A stretch of 34,570 bases of DNA, taken from Microscilla marina ATCC 23134 (GTDB taxonomy: Bacteria; Bacteroidota; Bacteroidia; Cytophagales; Microscillaceae). Positions 1,382-15,593 of the stretch are shown here, one piece after another (the first letter of the stretch is position 1; every line of letters starts with the position of its first letter). The position numbers were made by a program, and so were the translations under genes. Under the pieces are notes generated by a model. The model saw nothing but the letters and a program-made list of their open reading frames with translations, did no database searches and was not told the DNA's origin. The stretch lies in NCBI RefSeq assembly GCF_000169175.1, contig NZ_AAWS01000071.1:1-34570 (forward strand). Reading direction: 5' to 3'.

Positions 1382-2344
1382 ATGTTGGATCATTATCAAA
1401 TATTGGGATTGAAGAGAACCGCTTCGGCCGAGCAGATAAGAATTGCTTATAAGAAAATGGCGAAGCGTTATCACCCCGATAAAAACAACAATGATCCCCA
1501 CGCCGAAGAAGTATTTAAACGCATCAATGCCGCCTATCAGGTACTGTCTGACAAAACCAAAAAATACGATTACGATCACCCAACTACCACTACTGCCCGA
1601 CCAACATCTACTCATTATCGCACTTCGGAAACCACCACTACTCACCAAAAAAAATCTACTACTTATCGCGCCTCTGGCACCTATTATCAAGCTTCTTCCC
1701 GACACAAATATGAGCATATTCCGCTCAGGGTAAGGCGTATGCTACAGTTGGCCAGCGTGGTGATTGGCATTGGTGTGTTGGCGTTTGGAGTATACCTATA
1801 CGAAGTGGCTCCCCGCATATCGGCAAGGCACAGTTACGAAGAAGCCGTGGTGTTGGTGGCAGCACACAAATACAAAGAAGCCCTCAAAAAACTCAACCAT
1901 GCGGTTATATTTTACCCCCAACTGGTAGAGGCACAAATGCTGCGGGCAGACTTGAGTTACCGGGTTTTTAAGCATTACGTAGAAGCGTATGTGGGCTATA
2001 GCGAGGCAATCAAATACAGTAAAGAGGTGTTGCCGCTCAATGTGTTTTTTCTGAGGGGAATGGCGGCTTTTAAGGCACAAAAATACCGCCGGGCAATCAA
2101 TGACTTTAGCCAAACTATCTCAGACAATCCCGAAGGAAATCAGTACTCAGCCCAAGCCTATTTTTTTCGGGCCCAAGCCCAATACTATGTAAACCCTCAC
2201 CACAAAGCCTCGATTTGTAATGACCTGACCGCTGCCAAAGAAGAGGGAGTAAAAGGAGCTCACCGCCTACACTTGTTTTTTTGCGAAAGCATAGCACCAG
2301 GTGCCATCCAAAATATTGGTTTGAGCCAAGGGCTGGATTTTTAG
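1382..2344 (+). CDS. J-domain protein with transmembrane anchor and TPR-like C-terminus
   Basis: Residues 1-66 are a J domain that starts directly at MLDHYQILGL and contains the HPD motif at 31-33, which stimulates the ATPase of DnaK-type chaperones. A Thr/Ser-rich linker (67-110) follows, then one hydrophobic segment (about 120-140, LQLASVVIGIGVLAFGVYLY). The C-terminal 170 residues are helical repeats that look like TPRs, for example EEAVVLVAAHKYKEALKKLN. There is no Gly/Phe region or zinc finger, so this is a class III (DnaJC-like) co-chaperone and not DnaJ itself. It probably recruits Hsp70 at the inner membrane to partners bound by the TPR part; that role is inferred. It lies 19 nt after dprA and ends before a convergent terminator. 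Confidence 0.85.
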   Translation: MLDHYQILGLKRTASAEQIRIAYKKMAKRYHPDKNNNDPHAEEVFKRINAAYQVLSDKTKKYDYDHPTTTTARPTSTHYRTSETTTTHQKKSTTYRASGTYYQASSRHKYEHIPLRVRRMLQLASVVIGIGVLAFGVYLYEVAPRISARHSYEEAVVLVAAHKYKEALKKLNHAVIFYPQLVEAQMLRADLSYRVFKHYVEAYVGYSEAIKYSKEVLPLNVFFLRGMAAFKAQKYRRAINDFSQTISDNPEGNQYSAQAYFFRAQAQYYVNPHHKASICNDLTAAKEEGVKGAHRLHLFFCESIAPGAIQNIGLSQGLDF

Positions 2345-2433
2345 GTAAAACGCCCACAACCAGAGTAAATACCAGGGCAGCATTAAACATAGCCATATTT
2401 ATAGCTACTTAATGTTTGAAAAACAAAGCATAA

Positions 2434-2475
2434 AAAAACGACAAGTAAGCACCTAAAGCCCTACTTGTCGTTTTT
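2434..2475. terminator. Bidirectional Rho-independent terminator
   Basis: A perfect 14-bp inverted repeat (AAAAACGACAAGTA at 2434-2447 and its complement at 2462-2475) encloses a 14-nt loop. It has A-rich and T-rich outer ends, so it can work on both strands. It lies between the convergent J-domain gene and the minus-strand peptidase gene, as expected. Confidence 0.75.
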
Positions 2476-2497
2476 ATTTGGTATCAGTACCAAAAGC

Positions 2498-3898
2498 TTA
2501 GCGCACGTGCGTAATTTCCACCACCATTGCTACTACCGATTTGCCCGAACTTGCCGCCTTAAAGTTGATTTTGTCACTGCTAAACTGGGCATTTTTACTG
2601 CTTACCAGGTCTGCCGCCATTACCTTTTCTATGCGGTCTACAAACGAACCTTTGTACTTACTTAGTTGCTTGCGTATAGACCGAATATTGAGCTTTTTCT
2701 TAGAGTATAGCACGCACATGTAGTCAGTACCAATGTTATTATCCATTTTGATATAATAATCTTCGTTTGGAATGGCTACATTGTTTGACTTATAGTTGAG
2801 CGCAGGACTAATGCTGCGTTTGTGCGGGAAAATCATAAAAGTTTTTTCGCTCAGGTCGGAGCCAATGGCATATACAAAAGCGGGCTCATTGTTAGAGATA
2901 TGAATGCGAAACTGGGTGCCCGATGCATAAGGCTTTTTCATTTTATAATACCCCACTTTGTTGGTTTTACGCACATAGTCGGCTTCCATTTGATTGCCCG
3001 ATGCCAGTATAAACTTAAGTTGCCCTGATAGGTCGGCTTCGTGTGGCAAAGTCTTAGGGAAAGCAATGACCTCATAAGCGTACTTGGTAAAGTTGGCAAA
3101 GTCGTCGTATTTGATCCAGATAAATCCCCCATTGCCCCATTTGGTGCCCCAACTGTTCATGATCTCAAATGCCCCACCATACTTGTTGTCATCATAGCCA
3201 ATTACACACATGGCGTGTCCTCCATAACGCATGTTGGGGTTTTCGCTGGGTTTCCAGAAACCCTTTGCCTTAAAAAACGAGCGGGGGCATTTCATACCTA
3301 TTACTACCGGGTGCCCCGATGCCAACGATTTTTTCATTGCCCTGATCTTGAAGTTTTTGCCATATTTTCGGTCAAACAAACGGGCGTAATCTTGTATCTT
3401 ATGAGGTTTTGCTTTGCTAAAAATATTGCTTGGTATACTGGTAACACAGCTAATAGGAAACTCAGCATACTTGGGCACTCCCCGGTTTACCATTACCTGC
3501 ATGGCATCCGAAATGTGTGAACCACGTTTGCAACCTGCATCGGTTTTGTACTTAATTAGTTTGTACAAAAAACCAGGAGAATACGTATTACTGGTAATTT
3601 TTTGTTTACTCGTCCAACCATTGCTTTTTGCCTCTACAATGGTACGGGCGGCATACGCCGATGACCAACCTACACAGGTGCCATACCGTCCCTGACTTTT
3701 GGGAGTAGGACACCATTTTTTGAGCGACGATTTGGCTGGTACGCTTACATAGTCGCGGGTCATCAGCATGGCCTTCATCGGAGTGGCTTTGTATTTTTCA
3801 TCATCCATTTCCATACCCAGGCTATATTCCTGAGCAAACCCGGCAACACTCATCATTGCCAGCAAAAAGGTAAACCAATAGTGAGAATAGTGTTTCAT
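2498..3898 (-). CDS. Secreted papain-family (C1) cysteine peptidase with DUF4384-like C-domain
   Basis: A signal peptide (residues 1-22, ending at GFAQ) precedes a papain-like catalytic domain at about 50-275. The catalytic set is visible and in order: oxyanion-hole Gln69 and nucleophile Cys75 (KSQGRYGTCVGWSSAYAA), His228 (YGGHAMCVIGYDD) and Asn248 (IMNSWGTKWGNGG). The C-terminal part (about 290-466) resembles DUF4384, a beta-rich domain often attached to secreted bacterial proteases; this assignment is less certain. There is no T9SS sorting domain, so the product probably stays in the periplasm or outer-membrane space. It is encoded 400 nt downstream of a second secreted cysteine peptidase on the same strand. 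Substrate and processing are unknown. An active enzyme is expected because no catalytic residue is missing. Confidence 0.88.
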   Translation of the reverse strand: MKHYSHYWFTFLLAMMSVAGFAQEYSLGMEMDDEKYKATPMKAMLMTRDYVSVPAKSSLKKWCPTPKSQGRYGTCVGWSSAYAARTIVEAKSNGWTSKQKITSNTYSPGFLYKLIKYKTDAGCKRGSHISDAMQVMVNRGVPKYAEFPISCVTSIPSNIFSKAKPHKIQDYARLFDRKYGKNFKIRAMKKSLASGHPVVIGMKCPRSFFKAKGFWKPSENPNMRYGGHAMCVIGYDDNKYGGAFEIMNSWGTKWGNGGFIWIKYDDFANFTKYAYEVIAFPKTLPHEADLSGQLKFILASGNQMEADYVRKTNKVGYYKMKKPYASGTQFRIHISNNEPAFVYAIGSDLSEKTFMIFPHKRSISPALNYKSNNVAIPNEDYYIKMDNNIGTDYMCVLYSKKKLNIRSIRKQLSKYKGSFVDRIEKVMAADLVSSKNAQFSSDKINFKAASSGKSVVAMVVEITHVR

Positions 3899-3983: not shown

Positions 3984-4015
3984 CAAGTCCTTAGATACCG
4001 ATGAATATCGGTGCT
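3984..4015 (+). repeat. REP-like palindromic unit, core CCGATGAATATCGG
   Basis: The unit begins CAAGTCCTTAGATA, continues with the imperfect palindrome CCGATGAATATCGG and ends TGCT. It is one of at least five closely matching copies in the window. The others are at 9469-9499, 12740-12772, 14542-14574 and 14582-14614. It lies between the C1 and C14 peptidase genes. Confidence 0.75.
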
Positions 4016-9223: not shown

Positions 9224-9468
9224 TATCAACGGCTTTGTTGTACAGGTAGCCTTGCCAAAACAATAAAGCCACTTAATAATCGAGCGATGTTATAATCAAT
9301 AGTCCATAGCTGATTCGAGTAAATGTTCACCTTGTTAAATGCTGTAAACCAGCATTTTATATGAAGATTGCGTACTCACTTTATTTTTAAAAGTGTTTCG
9401 GTTTTATGCCTAAACACCCAATTAAATAGTTTTTAAATTCATAAATGACTGATAACCGAGCCTCTGGC

Positions 9469-9499
9469 GAGTCCTTAGATACCGATGTATATCGGTGCT
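9469..9499 (+). repeat. REP-like palindromic unit, core CCGATGTATATCGG
   Basis: The unit reads GAGTCCTTAGATA and then the palindrome CCGATGTATATCGG and TGCT. It is nearly identical to the copies at 3984-4015 and 14582-14614. It sits alone between two genes of the same strand. Confidence 0.75.
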
Positions 9500-9835: not shown

Positions 9836-10321
9836 ATGGCATTGAATAATGAAGAATTTGATAAGGTAAAAAGTATTTTTGTTGCTTATCTGGAAAATAA
9901 ATCTTTGCGAAAAACCCCCGAACGTTTTGCTATACTTGAAGAAATTTATACAAGAGGTGGGCATTTCGACGTAGAGTCGCTTTATATAAGCATGAAAAAC
10001 AAAAATTACCGGGTAAGCCGGGCTACGGTGTATAATACACTGGATATTTTGGTAGACTGTGACTTGGTGATTAAGCACCAATTTGGTAAAAACCTGGCAC
10101 AATACGAAAAAGCTTATGGGTACAAGCAGCACGATCATTTGATTTGTACCGACTGCCATACTGTAGTAGAGTTTTGTGACCCTCGCATTCAGAATATTCA
10201 GAACATGGTAGGCGACCTTCTGAAGTTTGATATTATGCATCATTCGTTGGTGTTTTATGGCAAATGCAATAAACCCGACTGTAAAAATAAAGAAGAGTTA
10301 GAAATTAAAAAGGCGGGGTAA
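9836..10321 (+). CDS. Fur-family metal-dependent transcriptional repressor
   Basis: Residues about 20-85 form the winged helix with [12 protein letters not shown] (61-72) as recognition helix. The dimerisation and metal part has the HDH metal motif at 99-101, a zinc pair CTDC (104-107) and the second pair Cys144/Cys149 (CNKPDC), so the structural zinc site is complete. The length (161) is normal. The protein could be Fur (iron), PerR (peroxide), Zur or another branch; the sequence alone does not decide. It has its own promoter and no obvious partner gene; neighbours are rel/spoT upstream and a STAS protein downstream. I see no convincing Fur-box inverted repeat at its promoter, so I make no claim of autoregulation. 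Confidence 0.9.
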
Positions 10322-10479
10322 GTAAAACTACAAAAATAACCTACTCCACCGAACTTTGTCTCTGATTGTTGTACTTCTCCAAAAAACTAGTTCAGCAAAC
10401 AGGTACTGCCTTCTTTTGGATTACTTTACTTTTTCCATTTTACTAAGCGCTTACTGTCTTTGGATTAAACATTTTTACC

Positions 10480-12222: not shown

Positions 12223-12645
12223 ATGCAACCAATTTATTCAATCATATCAACATTACTCAGGGGCTACGGCTTCTGGGTAATTTTTTTGTTTTTGGGTCTT
12301 GGTGCTTGTTCGTCGAAGCCCCAAAAACAAGCGCGCGTGTCAAAATCAGCGGCCCTTGTCCAAATGGCCAAAGAGTTCAAAGGTAATCATCGCCTTGCCT
12401 ATATTCAACAACAAGTAGATGAAGCTTTTAGGGCATACGATGTTGCGATCAACGAAAGCAATTACCAGCGATGTGCCAATGCTTTGATTGCCTTGCGCAA
12501 AGCCAGCAAAAATGGGGTTACTGAAATGGATATACTTGCCCATGTAAAGGCCATCAATGTGAGGGCTTACGGGGTGTCGTTTTTCAAACAATTGGCTGCT
12601 TCGGCACGCTACCTAGAGAAAAAACCACTTGATTTGCCCGCGTAG
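12223..12645 (+). CDS. Small hypothetical lipoprotein
   Basis: The 140-residue product has an N-terminal hydrophobic segment and a lipobox LGAC with Cys29 as the predicted lipidated residue, followed by SSKPQKQ. The mature part (about 110 residues) is charged and probably helical, with HRLAYIQQQVDEAFRAYDVA and NALIALRKASKNG. I do not recognise a family. The start lies 6 nt after purA, so the two genes are probably read together, although no functional link to purine synthesis is evident. A Ser after the Cys suggests that it is not retained as a surface lipoprotein, but sorting rules in this group are uncertain. Confidence 0.8.
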   Translation: MQPIYSIISTLLRGYGFWVIFLFLGLGACSSKPQKQARVSKSAALVQMAKEFKGNHRLAYIQQQVDEAFRAYDVAINESNYQRCANALIALRKASKNGVTEMDILAHVKAINVRAYGVSFFKQLAASARYLEKKPLDLPA

Positions 12646-12662
12646 CTTGGGTAAATAAGGAC

Positions 12663-12701
12663 TTCCATCTACCGATTTTATAAACCGCTAAAAATCAGTG
12701 T
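12663..12701 (-). repeat. Outer module of the inverted repeat bracketing the kinase gene (left)
   Basis: These 39 nt match the reverse complement of 14657-14695 at 36 of 39 positions. They begin TTCCATCTACCGAT and contain TATAAACCGCTAAAAATCAG. They lie between the lipoprotein and kinase genes. The module overlaps the hairpin at 12670-12716. Confidence 0.75.
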
Positions 12702-12716
12702 TCTATAAAATCGGTA
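12670..12716 (+). terminator. Hairpin after the purA-lipoprotein unit, possible terminator
   Basis: A perfect 13-bp inverted repeat (TACCGATTTTATA at 12670-12682 and its complement at 12704-12716) has a 21-nt loop and starts 25 nt after the lipoprotein stop. No T-tract follows, so factor-independent termination is doubtful. The structure may instead be part of the repeat family. Confidence 0.4.
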
Positions 12717-12728
12717 ACAGGCTTGAAG

Positions 12729-12781
12729 CTTGTCGCTAAAAGCACCGATATGCATCGGTATCTAAGGACTTGAGGCTGTAG
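12729..12781 (-). repeat. Inner module of the inverted repeat bracketing the kinase gene (left), 53 nt
   Basis: This 53-nt stretch matches the reverse complement of 14533-14585 at 51 of 53 positions. It contains a REP-like palindrome (12740-12772). It ends 29 nt before the kinase start codon, so it lies in the kinase leader. Confidence 0.85.
12740..12772 (-). repeat. REP-like palindromic unit, core CCGATGCATATCGG
   Basis: On the minus strand this reads CAAGTCCTTAGATA, CCGATGCATATCGG and TGCTT. It is the inverted counterpart of the copy at 14542-14574. It forms the central part of the 53-nt inner module just upstream of the histidine-kinase gene. Confidence 0.8.
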
Positions 12782-12809
12782 AGACTACTGACCAAAGAAT
12801 ATTAAAAAC

Positions 12810-14552
12810 ATGAACTACCGCTTTTCTTACCTCTCGCTGGGTATGTTTGTGGCAAGTGTCTTCATTATTACGTTATTGTCGACGCTTAACCATGTACCAG
12901 CTACCTACAAAGCTACCGAGGTGCGGTTTTGTTATGGAGATTCGCTTGAGTGGAAAAATCCATCCTACTCTACAGCACATTGGCAACGTAATTTTTATGA
13001 CTCTAGTGGGGTATTTTGGATCAGGTTGGTGGTGCATATCACCCAACCTCCCCAACGCTTCGAGCCGCAGGGTATCACTGTAGATTTTACGGGAATGTAT
13101 GAGGTATATTGGGATGGGCAATTGTTGGGGCGTAACTATCACCCACACAAGGCTACTCAGCAAGTGCAATATGCCCCTTTACATGGCTTGTTTCTCATTC
13201 CCGATTCGTTGGGCAAAGCAGGCAGGCATCAAGTGGCTTTGCGGGTCAGGTATTTTAAAAATTATGGCAAAAGCCCCCACCTGCTAGAGAGCGATTATAC
13301 CGATTTGAATGTGGGCAACTACCTGGCTTTGGCACAAGATAGCCTTGTCAGTACGGCGTATGTACACATCATAGCAGGAGTTTTTCTGGTCATTGGCTTA
13401 TATTATTTTTTTATATTTATGGTAAGCAATCGCCACCTCCGTTTTTTGTTGTTTGCCATTATCTGTATGTCGTTTTTTGCCTTGCTTATAGTAGAGCATT
13501 TACGTTTTTATTACTATTATAACTTCACCTTTCACTATACCCGCCTGGTCATCATTGCCTTACTTACCCTGGGTATATCGGTATTGTTGCCCTTGTTTTT
13601 TATGCATCGGTTTCCGTTTAAGTACAAGCTGCGGGTGATTGGAGCAATGCTGGCAATGATTTTACCTATCTGGATTTTTGCCCAAGGCATAGACCCCAAG
13701 ACAAGTTATACTATGTTGGTATCGTTTGGGGTGTCGTTGTTTTTGGTGTTGCGTGCCATGCAGCAACGCATCGAAGGCAGCACCGAGGCGTTGTTGGGCA
13801 TTGTGGTCTTTTTCATTGCGTTTGTGTGGTTAGATAATTATGACCTGAAGTTGTTTCTAGGGTTTGGTTTCCTCATTATTTTTATGCTCTTATCATTGTC
13901 TATTCAAATGCGCAAACAGCGTCAAGAGTATGAAGCATCGTTGGTGCATTCGAGCCGACTAGAACTGGAGGTGCTGAAAAAAAATATCCAGCCTCATTTT
14001 CTGATGAACTCGCTGGCATCTATCATTGCCTGGATCGATGACGACCCAGCAGTAGGTACACGTTTTATTGCGGCACTTGCCGAAGAATTAGAGATTTTGA
14101 TTGATGTATCGAGCAAAAAACTCATTCCGCTACAGCGGGAAGTAGAACTTTGTGAATCTTACCTTGAGGTAATGAGTTTGCGCAAAGAGGTAAATTATAC
14201 CTTATATACAGTAGGGGTCAAGCCCGATGATTTGATCCCTCCAGCATTGATCCATACGGCTATAGAAAATGGCATTACACACAACCACGACAAAGATGGT
14301 AAAATGGCGTTTTATTTGAGCTTTGCACAAAACCGCTACCAAAGGCATTACACGCTGATGTCGGTAGGGGTACACCGAAAAACTGTGGCTAAAAAAACCG
14401 GGGGTACCGGACTAAAGTATATGGAGGCTCGTTTGCAGGAAAGTTTCCCAAACCGTTGGCAACTGTTGTCGAAACCGATTGAAGGAGGGTGGCAAACTGA
14501 GTTTTTTATTTATAATCGGGAGACGGGAGCTTCTACAGCCTCAAGTCCTTAG
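12810..14552 (+). CDS. 7TM sensor histidine kinase, LytS/YehU type
   Basis: A signal-like N-terminal hydrophobic segment (12-26) leads to an extracytoplasmic beta-rich domain (about 30-180) like the DISMED2 part of 7TMR-DISM receptors. Seven membrane segments follow between about 184 and 366. The cytoplasmic part is a His_kinase domain with phospho-acceptor His396 in NIQPHFLMNSLASI, an N-box in ALIHTAIENGITHN and a glycine motif GGTGLKYMEARL. It is expected to phosphorylate the LytTR regulator encoded at 14895. The two genes are unusually split by 342 nt of repeats. The last residues (SSP) and the TAG stop lie inside a repeat module, so the native C-terminus may have been changed. The ligand is unknown; this class often senses carbohydrates or small molecules. 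Confidence 0.9.
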   Translation: MNYRFSYLSLGMFVASVFIITLLSTLNHVPATYKATEVRFCYGDSLEWKNPSYSTAHWQRNFYDSSGVFWIRLVVHITQPPQRFEPQGITVDFTGMYEVYWDGQLLGRNYHPHKATQQVQYAPLHGLFLIPDSLGKAGRHQVALRVRYFKNYGKSPHLLESDYTDLNVGNYLALAQDSLVSTAYVHIIAGVFLVIGLYYFFIFMVSNRHLRFLLFAIICMSFFALLIVEHLRFYYYYNFTFHYTRLVIIALLTLGISVLLPLFFMHRFPFKYKLRVIGAMLAMILPIWIFAQGIDPKTSYTMLVSFGVSLFLVLRAMQQRIEGSTEALLGIVVFFIAFVWLDNYDLKLFLGFGFLIIFMLLSLSIQMRKQRQEYEASLVHSSRLELEVLKKNIQPHFLMNSLASIIAWIDDDPAVGTRFIAALAEELEILIDVSSKKLIPLQREVELCESYLEVMSLRKEVNYTLYTVGVKPDDLIPPALIHTAIENGITHNHDKDGKMAFYLSFAQNRYQRHYTLMSVGVHRKTVAKKTGGTGLKYMEARLQESFPNRWQLLSKPIEGGWQTEFFIYNRETGASTASSP

Positions 14553-14585
14553 ATGCCGATGCATATCGGTGCTTTTAGCAACAAG
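14533..14585 (+). repeat. Inner module of the inverted repeat bracketing the kinase gene (right), overlaps the gene end
   Basis: This stretch matches the reverse complement of 12729-12781 at 51 of 53 positions. Its first 20 nt are the end of the kinase coding region, including the stop codon. Its first part reads CTACAGCCTCAAGTCCTTAG. Confidence 0.85.
14542..14574 (+). repeat. REP-like palindromic unit, core CCGATGCATATCGG
   Basis: The unit CAAGTCCTTAGATG, CCGATGCATATCGG, TGCTT begins inside the kinase gene and provides its TAG stop. A second unit follows 7 nt later. Confidence 0.8.
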
Positions 14586-14614
14586 TCCTTAGATACCGAT
14601 GTATATCGGTGCTT
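14582..14614 (+). repeat. REP-like palindromic unit, core CCGATGTATATCGG, tandem to the previous one
   Basis: This is a second direct copy, 40 nt downstream of the first, reading CAAGTCCTTAGATA, CCGATGTATATCGG, TGCTT. A decayed third copy can be made out at about 14699-14770 (CAAGTCCTTAG, then ATCGATATGTATCAGTAT). Confidence 0.8.
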
Positions 14615-14656
14615 CAAGTTTGGGGCTGCTCTACAAGCAACTTTCAGGTTTGTAAT

Positions 14657-14695
14657 ACATTGATTTTTAACGGTTTATAACATCGGTAGATGGAA
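14657..14695 (+). repeat. Outer module of the inverted repeat bracketing the kinase gene (right)
   Basis: The 39 nt contain TTGATTTTTAACGGTTTATA and end GGTAGATGGAA. They match the reverse complement of 12663-12701 at 36 of 39 positions. With the inner modules they form a mirrored arrangement around the kinase gene. Confidence 0.75.
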
Positions 14696-14848
14696 GGTTT
14701 CTACAGTCCCAAGTCCTTAGTGCTTTAAGCTACAAGTCATCAACTATCGATATGTATCAGTATCCAGGGGCTTGTCCCTAACTATAAAAGTGAAAATAAA
14801 CAACCTTACAACCTTGACAACTACCCGCAGAACAGGTAGAAAGCTTGT

Positions 14849-14894: not shown

Positions 14895-15593
14895 ATGAAA
14901 ATACTCATTGTAGAAGACGAGGCTAAAATAGCCCAATACATAGAAAAGGCTACAGTAGCTATATTGGGCGATAAAGTAACCGCCACTAAGATTATTCCAG
15001 ACTTGGTCAGCGCTTTGTACTACCTCGAAGCACATACTATAGACTTGCTGTTGTTAGACTTGAACCTGAACGGAGAGGATGGGTTTGATATTTTACAGCA
15101 GTTAGTAGCGACCTCTTTTCATACCATTATTATATCTGCCAATAAGCATCGGGCTATCGAAGCATTTGAACACGGCGTGCTTGACTTTATCCCCAAACCG
15201 TTTACCAAAGAAAGGCTCCAAAAGGCTTTTGAACGTTGGCACTTATCAGAAAAACGAGCGCCTCATCCTACCAAAAAGCTGGCGATCCGGTCTAAAGGAA
15301 AAATCAAATTGGTAGGCATAGACGAGGTATTGTATATAAAAGCTGCCAATGTGTATGCTACATTGCATTTGAAAAACGGCAGGCAAGAGTTACACGATAA
15401 GTCATTGGACAAATTGCAAATGATACTACCACCAGAGTTTATTCGTATTCATAAATCGTATATGGTAGACATTCATCAAATAAAAAATATTCTCATTCAT
15501 CAAGGCAGTAAATATGAAGCCGTACTTGGCAACGAAGTCATTATTCCGATTGGGCGCACTTATTATAAACAGTTGAAAGAACAATGGAATTGA
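14895..15593 (+). CDS. LytTR-family response regulator
   Basis: The receiver domain (1-118) starts MKILIVEDE, has acidic pocket residues Glu7/Asp8, phospho-acceptor Asp55 (LLLLDLNLNGEDGFD) and the conserved Lys101 in FIPKPF. The C-terminal part (about 130-232) is a LytTR DNA-binding domain with IDEVLYIKAANVYATLHL, LPPEFIRIHKSYMVDI and VIIPIGRTYYKQLKE. The length (232) is typical. Its partner is very likely the 7TM histidine kinase encoded just upstream, with which this regulator class is normally paired. The two genes are separated by a 342-nt repeat array, so separate transcription is possible. The target genes are unknown; I see no obvious LytTR direct-repeat site near the gene itself. Confidence 0.93.
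   Translation: MKILIVEDEAKIAQYIEKATVAILGDKVTATKIIPDLVSALYYLEAHTIDLLLLDLNLNGEDGFDILQQLVATSFHTIIISANKHRAIEAFEHGVLDFIPKPFTKERLQKAFERWHLSEKRAPHPTKKLAIRSKGKIKLVGIDEVLYIKAANVYATLHLKNGRQELHDKSLDKLQMILPPEFIRIHKSYMVDIHQIKNILIHQGSKYEAVLGNEVIIPIGRTYYKQLKEQWN

Follow-up and report, generated by a model that had tools for sequence, protein, structure and literature searches.

The kinase locus and its counterpart in a related genome

The window analysed here is a stretch of 34,570 nucleotides (nt) from Microscilla marina ATCC 23134 (contig NZ_AAWS01000071.1), whose genome (G000) comprises 9.77 Mb in 135 contigs. Within this window, a histidine kinase gene is followed on the same strand by the gene for a response regulator with a LytTR domain, and the kinase gene is bracketed by two repeats, each consisting of an outer and an inner module, that mirror one another. 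For comparison we used one genome of the same genus (G001), the sole other member of the genus compared. The genes and repeat features at the locus are listed below.

12223..12645, plus strand: upstream open reading frame (ORF) of 140 amino acids, no Pfam match, collinear in G001 (ORF and Pfam analysis)
12663..12782, plus strand: left copy of a composite element (outer hairpin, spacer, one 26-nt unit, GGCTGTAGA end); 120 nt without counterpart in G001
12670..12716, plus strand: outer hairpin of the left copy, with a 13-bp stem and a 4-bp inner stem (folding against shuffles)
12744..12769, plus strand: 26-nt inner unit in the second site of the left copy (AAAAGC^TTGAGG), the first site being empty (sequence comparison)
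12810..14552, plus strand: histidine kinase (PF06580), 580 amino acids (Pfam and ORF)
14530..14696, minus strand: right copy of the composite element, with units in both inner sites and an outer stem disrupted by 3'-arm changes (comparison and folding)
14545..14570, minus strand: 26-nt inner unit in the second site of the right copy (sequence comparison)
14585..14610, minus strand: 26-nt inner unit in the first site of the right copy (sequence comparison)
14895..15593, plus strand: response regulator with LytTR domain (PF00072, PF04397; Pfam and ORF)

A previous, sequence-only reading of the window had placed an outer module at 12663-12701 and an inner module at 12729-12781 to the left of the kinase gene, with their reverse complements in mirrored order at 14533-14585 (inner) and 14657-14695 (outer) to its right. 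Direct sequence comparison reproduced these coordinates with 36/39 identities for the outer and 51/53 for the inner pair, and confirmed the mirrored order. The ungapped matches are in fact longer, reaching 88% over 48 nt for the outer module (12662-12709/14649-14696) and 83% over 80 nt for the inner module (12729-12808/14506-14585), and the inner unit at 14585-14610 in the right copy is an addition to the earlier list. When the left block (151 nt) was searched against its own genome, at least 57 matches were obtained with 40 of the 403 candidates scored, and the repeat pair is therefore not private to the kinase gene.

The window and G001 align collinearly from 3.1 to 24.7 kb, with 92-98% nucleotide identity in the main blocks, and the upstream ORF, purA, the kinase gene, the LytTR gene and ddl are all collinear. 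The G001 kinase (95-96% protein identity) has the same neighbours and the same orientation, and neither copy of the composite element is present around it. Since the kinase occupies the same place without the repeats, the repeats came or went around a resident gene. At the left site, window positions 12662 and 12783 meet at a single point in G001 with a 3-nt overlap, which corresponds to a 120-nt insertion and a clean empty site. The two spacers beside the kinase gene measure 164 and 342 nt in the window versus 40 and 172 nt in G001. The right copy supplies the last codons and the stop codon of the kinase (14545-14552), so that this repeat changes a protein end: the kinase tail is NRETGASTASSP in the window versus NRETGVGSR in G001.

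Gene order was compared more widely in the best 80 of 232 stretches with relatives of the kinase, G001's own record included. A LytTR regulator gene lies directly downstream on the same strand in 79/80 of these loci (77 by a script rule, and two with a two-base overlap read from the printout). In the remaining locus (L154) the LytTR gene is located upstream, again on the same strand, which makes the two genes co-oriented in 80/80. The kinase/LytTR pairing is also kept in the paralogs of both G000 and G001. No modules were present near the kinase in any of the 80 loci.

Build, fold and spread of the composite element

The outer and inner modules belong to a single composite element, which is intergenic and about 105-170 nt long. 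Around the left-block matches, 35 stretches of G000 were taken, and 43 copies of the outer module were compared. Their common build is TCCATCTACCGATTTTATAA..., the outer hairpin, a spacer, two sites for the 26-nt unit ACCGATATNCATCGGYATCTAAGGAC, and the end GGCTGTAGAAG. According to a script count, 13/43 copies carry no inner unit, 21/43 carry one and 9/43 carry two; the inner unit lies downstream on the same strand in 30/43 copies and on the opposite strand in 0/43. In a set of 51 cores collected with a looser pattern, for which the inner unit was sought within 150 nt downstream, 27 had such a unit on the same strand and 41 had the end motif. The mirrored order around the kinase arises because two copies of this one composite sit there in opposite orientations, and it needs no further cause.

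Counted as a 29-mer with at most three mismatches, the outer core occurs 51 times in G000 (29 plus, 22 minus) and eight times in G001 (3 plus, 5 minus); the reversed sequence used as a control gave 0 copies. Within a sample of 15 genomes of the family, the composite is present in the two of this genus and was not found in the 13 others. The exact 28-mer of the outer core retrieved 0 stretches from a contig collection, a search from which the genome's own or very near records were possibly excluded, and Rfam at the gathering threshold gave 0 matches in the window. Single copies of the composite adjoin many different ORFs. A further module (…TTTACAGCATTTAACAAGGTGAACATTTACTC…) is often found directly upstream of the outer module (L017, L018, L025 and L028) and, judged by eye, also near 9,300 in the window on the other strand.

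Orthologous G001 stretches were located for most copies, with 32 matches for 38 segments. For 30/43 copies, at 27 places (three pairs share a place), the aligned position in G001 lacks a collinear outer module, by a test that a diverged copy of the element could escape. The outer module was shared with G001 for 3/43 copies. Of the remaining 10/43 copies, five had only one aligned flank or a contig end and five had no orthologous stretch. At six sites, read by eye, TCCATC...GTAGAAG is inserted with CT on both sides and CT occurs once in the empty site; these are L019, L034, L014, L009 and L001, plus L013 as CT/TT. L001 holds a tandem pair whose start is a variant one, and L013 directly adjoins an older element end. 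L017 is a clean site with an insertion of 338 nt that holds more than the composite, including the TTTACAGCATTTAACAAGGTGAACATTTACTC module. Many sites differ by more than one element, and few junctions are clean.

The left outer hairpin folds with a free energy of -17.9 kcal/mol (z -4.6), and 0/200 shuffles folded as well. The outer part of the right copy reached -2.4 kcal/mol (z +0.5) and the whole right copy a z of -0.4; the right copy has lost its outer stem. Because this stem is broken, the left and right modules are alike in sequence and not in fold. Across the family, covariation in the outer stem was examined in 40 distinct copies against 500 shuffles. Outer-stem pairs were kept in 90.7% versus 89.7% in shuffles, and changes on both sides of a pair were seen in 21 cells versus 11.4 in shuffles (3/500 shuffles reach 21). 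There was no excess of pairs with a both-side change (106/500 shuffles reach the observed value) and none of further pair types (15 versus 15.2 in shuffles; 366/500 reach the observed value). The support for a kept hairpin is weak to modest.

Origin of the mirrored repeats

Taken together, these data suggest that the mirrored repeats are two independently inserted copies of a dispersed modular repeat, which flank the resident kinase of a conserved kinase/LytTR pair. We assign this reading a probability of roughly 0.88. The kinase was already in place, and two copies of the composite were most likely inserted, one at a time, after the split from the G001 lineage. Each copy has the order outer hairpin, spacer, 26-nt units (zero to two) and GGCTGTAGAAG-like end. 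These insertions would have hit the spacers on both sides of the kinase in opposite orientations. The difference between the genomes is probably due to insertion in the lineage of the window rather than to loss in G001, and the effect on the kinase would be limited to a longer spacer RNA and the replaced C-terminal tail.

A bracket of a plus core followed by a minus core around a gene is not very improbable by chance. In a random-placement model (51 cores on 9.77 Mb, random strands, contig borders ignored), a plus-then-minus neighbour pair 1-2.5 kb apart was obtained in 9.5% of the trials. The cores are clustered in G000, with seven neighbour pairs within 5 kb versus 1.3 expected, and the plus-then-minus order occurs in two of these seven, i.e. 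in one besides the kinase bracket. For the kinase itself, the bracket is ordinary.

Several observations weigh against two simple insertions. The right site is not cleanly empty, as 263 unaligned nt in the window stand against 83 other nt in G001, among them a stretch that partly resembles the end of the element. The left site of the window would fit the CT duplication only if two substitutions are allowed. Of the 51 looser-pattern cores, there is one whose inner unit is on the opposite strand, and in two an inner unit lies upstream. Furthermore, one spacer (L032) has a G001 element on the opposite strand:

L032:3962-4082 and L090:2409-2573, opposite strands: composite-like pair in an orthologous spacer, 71% alike

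The element may have been inserted independently, or it may itself have turned long ago. Finally, the comparison involves only one other genome of the genus, and insertion and loss are told apart only by a clean junction together with the CT duplication.

The sequence-only reading had offered three explanations: movement of the kinase as a 2-kb cassette with inverted ends, an inversion hot spot, or insertion of paired repetitive extragenic palindrome (REP) modules. A mobile cassette, in which kinase and repeats moved together with the repeats as ends, would be in keeping with the inverted ends and with the lack of a transposase inside, as for a non-autonomous unit. Against it stand the G001 kinase, which is in place without either repeat, the different flanks of the two insertions and the single copies beside many ORFs, which leaves this explanation with a next to negligible probability. 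The chance that the segment is a phase-variable unit, with recombination between the inverted copies flipping the kinase relative to its LytTR partner, appears very small. With identities of 36/39 and 51/53 and a distance of 2.0 kb between them, the inverted copies are in principle long enough for occasional recombination. However, G001 lacks the repeats and yet has its kinase in the same orientation, 79/80 loci have the LytTR gene immediately downstream on the same strand, the copies belong to a dispersed family, and a Pfam scan limited to eight neighbouring proteins of the window showed no recombinase. A rare inversion within a population may still occur. The comparison of related genomes that had been proposed, in search of an inverted or absent kinase segment, gave one orientation in both genomes of the genus. 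Insertion of paired modules, the third explanation, does fit, except that the modules may be something other than REPs. The same reading had named as evidence against itself a fixed orientation of the kinase beside the LytTR gene and modules occurring around many genes without mirrored order. The fixed orientation and the occurrence around many genes were both observed in the genomes compared, whereas the mirrored order does recur, in one other plus-then-minus pair within 5 kb.

The elements could alternatively be regulatory RNAs that are under selection around kinase genes, for example as hairpins that attenuate or process the transcript. In agreement with this, they are located in the spacers of a run of same-strand genes, the left hairpin has a z of -4.6, and both-side changes number 21 versus 11.4 in shuffles. 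On the other hand, the element is absent at the G001 place, there is no Rfam match and no excess of pair types, and the right outer stem has been lost; a mobile hairpin would keep its stem too. We consider a regulatory role of this kind unlikely. With independent insertion as the preferred reading, the phase-variation story is removed for this kinase: inverted repeats that bracket a gene are weak evidence of a switch if they belong to a dispersed family and are missing from a close relative.

The 26-nt unit, candidate enzymes and known repeat systems

The 26-nt inner unit is the least ordinary part of the locus. Its 25-nt core, used as the query in 148 genomes sampled from the order (80 genera), has 249 copies in G000 and 224 in G001, and none in the other 146 genomes. 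In the window, the unit is also found outside the composite:

9471..9496, minus strand: 26-nt unit in the context TTGAGC^TCGCCAG (sequence comparison)
3987..4012, minus strand: 26-nt unit in the context AATAGC^TTGCGAC (sequence comparison)

The left neighbour of the unit is AGC in 56/56 units of G000, which come from the fetched stretches and are mostly inside composites, and it ends in GC for 11/11 units of G001. In 30 further distinct G001 units, which were found without using the flanks, NGC is present on the left in 26/30, and the right side is C plus TTG, TCG, TTA or TTT in 28/30. The contexts of the unit include the two composite sites, GGTGTAGC^TTGCGACTTG, GTTGAGC^TCGCCAGAGG, GCTAATTGC^TTGCTGCTACTT and TTGTAGC^TTATAGC, and the last of these repeats was seen empty in G001. 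Several different repeats have GC^TT/GC^TC sites that carry the unit in some cases and lack it in others. With 27/40 matching bases over the junction as a loose threshold, 46/56 units of G000 and 7/11 of G001 had an empty counterpart, mostly in another copy of the same repeat. One orthologous filled/empty pair (L093 versus L002, 38/40) has the unit in G001 and not in G000. The insertion point is ambiguous by one base.

The composite would have been moved by an enzyme acting in trans. No candidate for this enzyme was identified in a search limited to Y1 and RAYT-like genes. Y1 transposases gave seven Pfam matches at six places. Four of the Y1 loci carry the same element, presumably IS605-like and about 1.7 kb long, in copies that are 84-98% alike. 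As the source of the composite ends the Y1 elements were rejected, as only matches of at most 17 nt were found in the Y1 stretches tested. Genes that are presumably related to RAYTs (REP-associated tyrosine transposases), a label based on a Pfam Y1 match for one gene, are located at two places in G000, with five matches in G001. These were also rejected as the mover: other palindromes lie beside them, and no module occurs in the stretches around the two G000 genes and the five G001 matches. One RAYT-like Y1 gene of 179 amino acids (L042:1414-1953) lies among numerous copies of a different hairpin repeat (CTTGGTCTGCTTCGCTAAAGACCAAG and its relatives) at 1129-1188 and 1983-3170, about 130-174 nt apart. 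The second RAYT-like gene (L098; G000:C25:58991-59494 and surroundings) is flanked on either side, by eye, by a third palindrome, TTGCTTGTG...CACAAGCAA. The idea that the other outer cores belong to a longer element was likewise rejected: in 15 further stretches, 16 cores were inspected with 230 nt of sequence each, and none is visibly the end of a long shared element; three of these were intercompared. Our guess is that the mover is a hairpin-recognising Y1-type enzyme acting in trans, because of the hairpins, the short targets and the analogy with the IS200/IS605 and REP systems.

The small dispersed repeats of cyanobacteria, SDR5 among them, were reportedly described by Elhai et al. in 2008. 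In their behaviour, the composite and the 26-nt unit appear close to SDR5 and to BOX elements. One source on SDR5 (PMC4390886) describes a unit that is found inside other repeats. The 26-nt unit is SDR5-like in that it is very short and has filled and empty sites at a fixed point of a short target. It appears to differ in sequence, and it differs in phylum and in its target, which is GC^TT/GC^TC and not HIP1; the likeness drawn is one of behaviour. BOX elements of Streptococcus pneumoniae, as presented in PMC3049150, have end modules and variable middle modules, form hairpins and are intergenic. The composite has a comparable build, in which the end modules are constant and the middle modules vary in number. 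Here, however, the middle unit also occurs outside the composite, in other repeats, and the likening is by build and not by sequence.

Like miniature inverted-repeat transposable elements (MITEs), the composite is short, non-coding and dispersed, with a CT target duplication at six sites (by eye). Its terminal inverted repeat appears weak, with only about CTTC-A common to both ends (by eye), and no autonomous partner with the same ends was seen among the IS605-like loci and the further outer cores. The REP/REPIN-RAYT systems (PMC3116915, PMC2817692, PMC6006769) share the high-copy intergenic palindromes, and G000 has two RAYT-like genes. The RAYT-like genes, however, are flanked by other palindromes and not by these modules, and no GT(A/G)G is found at the foot of the outer or inner hairpin consensus (by eye). 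A literature search, mostly of the open literature, showed no paper on these Microscilla repeats among the titles listed; their absence from print is not claimed.

A broader reading, to which we would give about even odds, is that of nested 'Russian-doll' mobile repeats in a genus of Bacteroidota. A 26-nt hairpin, among the smallest units with proposed site-specific insertion, would have entered GC^TT/GC^TC sites in five or more repeat contexts, with about 220-250 copies in each genome. Its hosts would include the 105-170 nt composite, which would itself still be spreading into gene spacers with CT duplication, and a hairpin-recognising enzyme would act in trans on one or both. The G000/G001 pair, with 92-98% identity in the main blocks of this locus, allows very small non-coding elements to be followed base by base between occupied and empty sites, and it offers a place to look for the enzyme.

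Other repeats were also observed. Near the ends of the window lies another inverted pair (110-200/32881-32971, 90% over 91 nt, TAGTGCACTGGGGATTAAAT), which is also seen at 4-25/32999-33020, and a similar motif occurs in the G001 stretch L075. A further inverted pair at 26324-26401/31916-31993 is 78 nt long and 77% alike, with its copies 5.5 kb apart. At L063:6809-7150 (window 10320-10445), a different repeat of about 100 nt occurs in G001 as two direct copies, in the two spacers that surround a short stretch ahead of the STAS gene; both copies are missing from the window.
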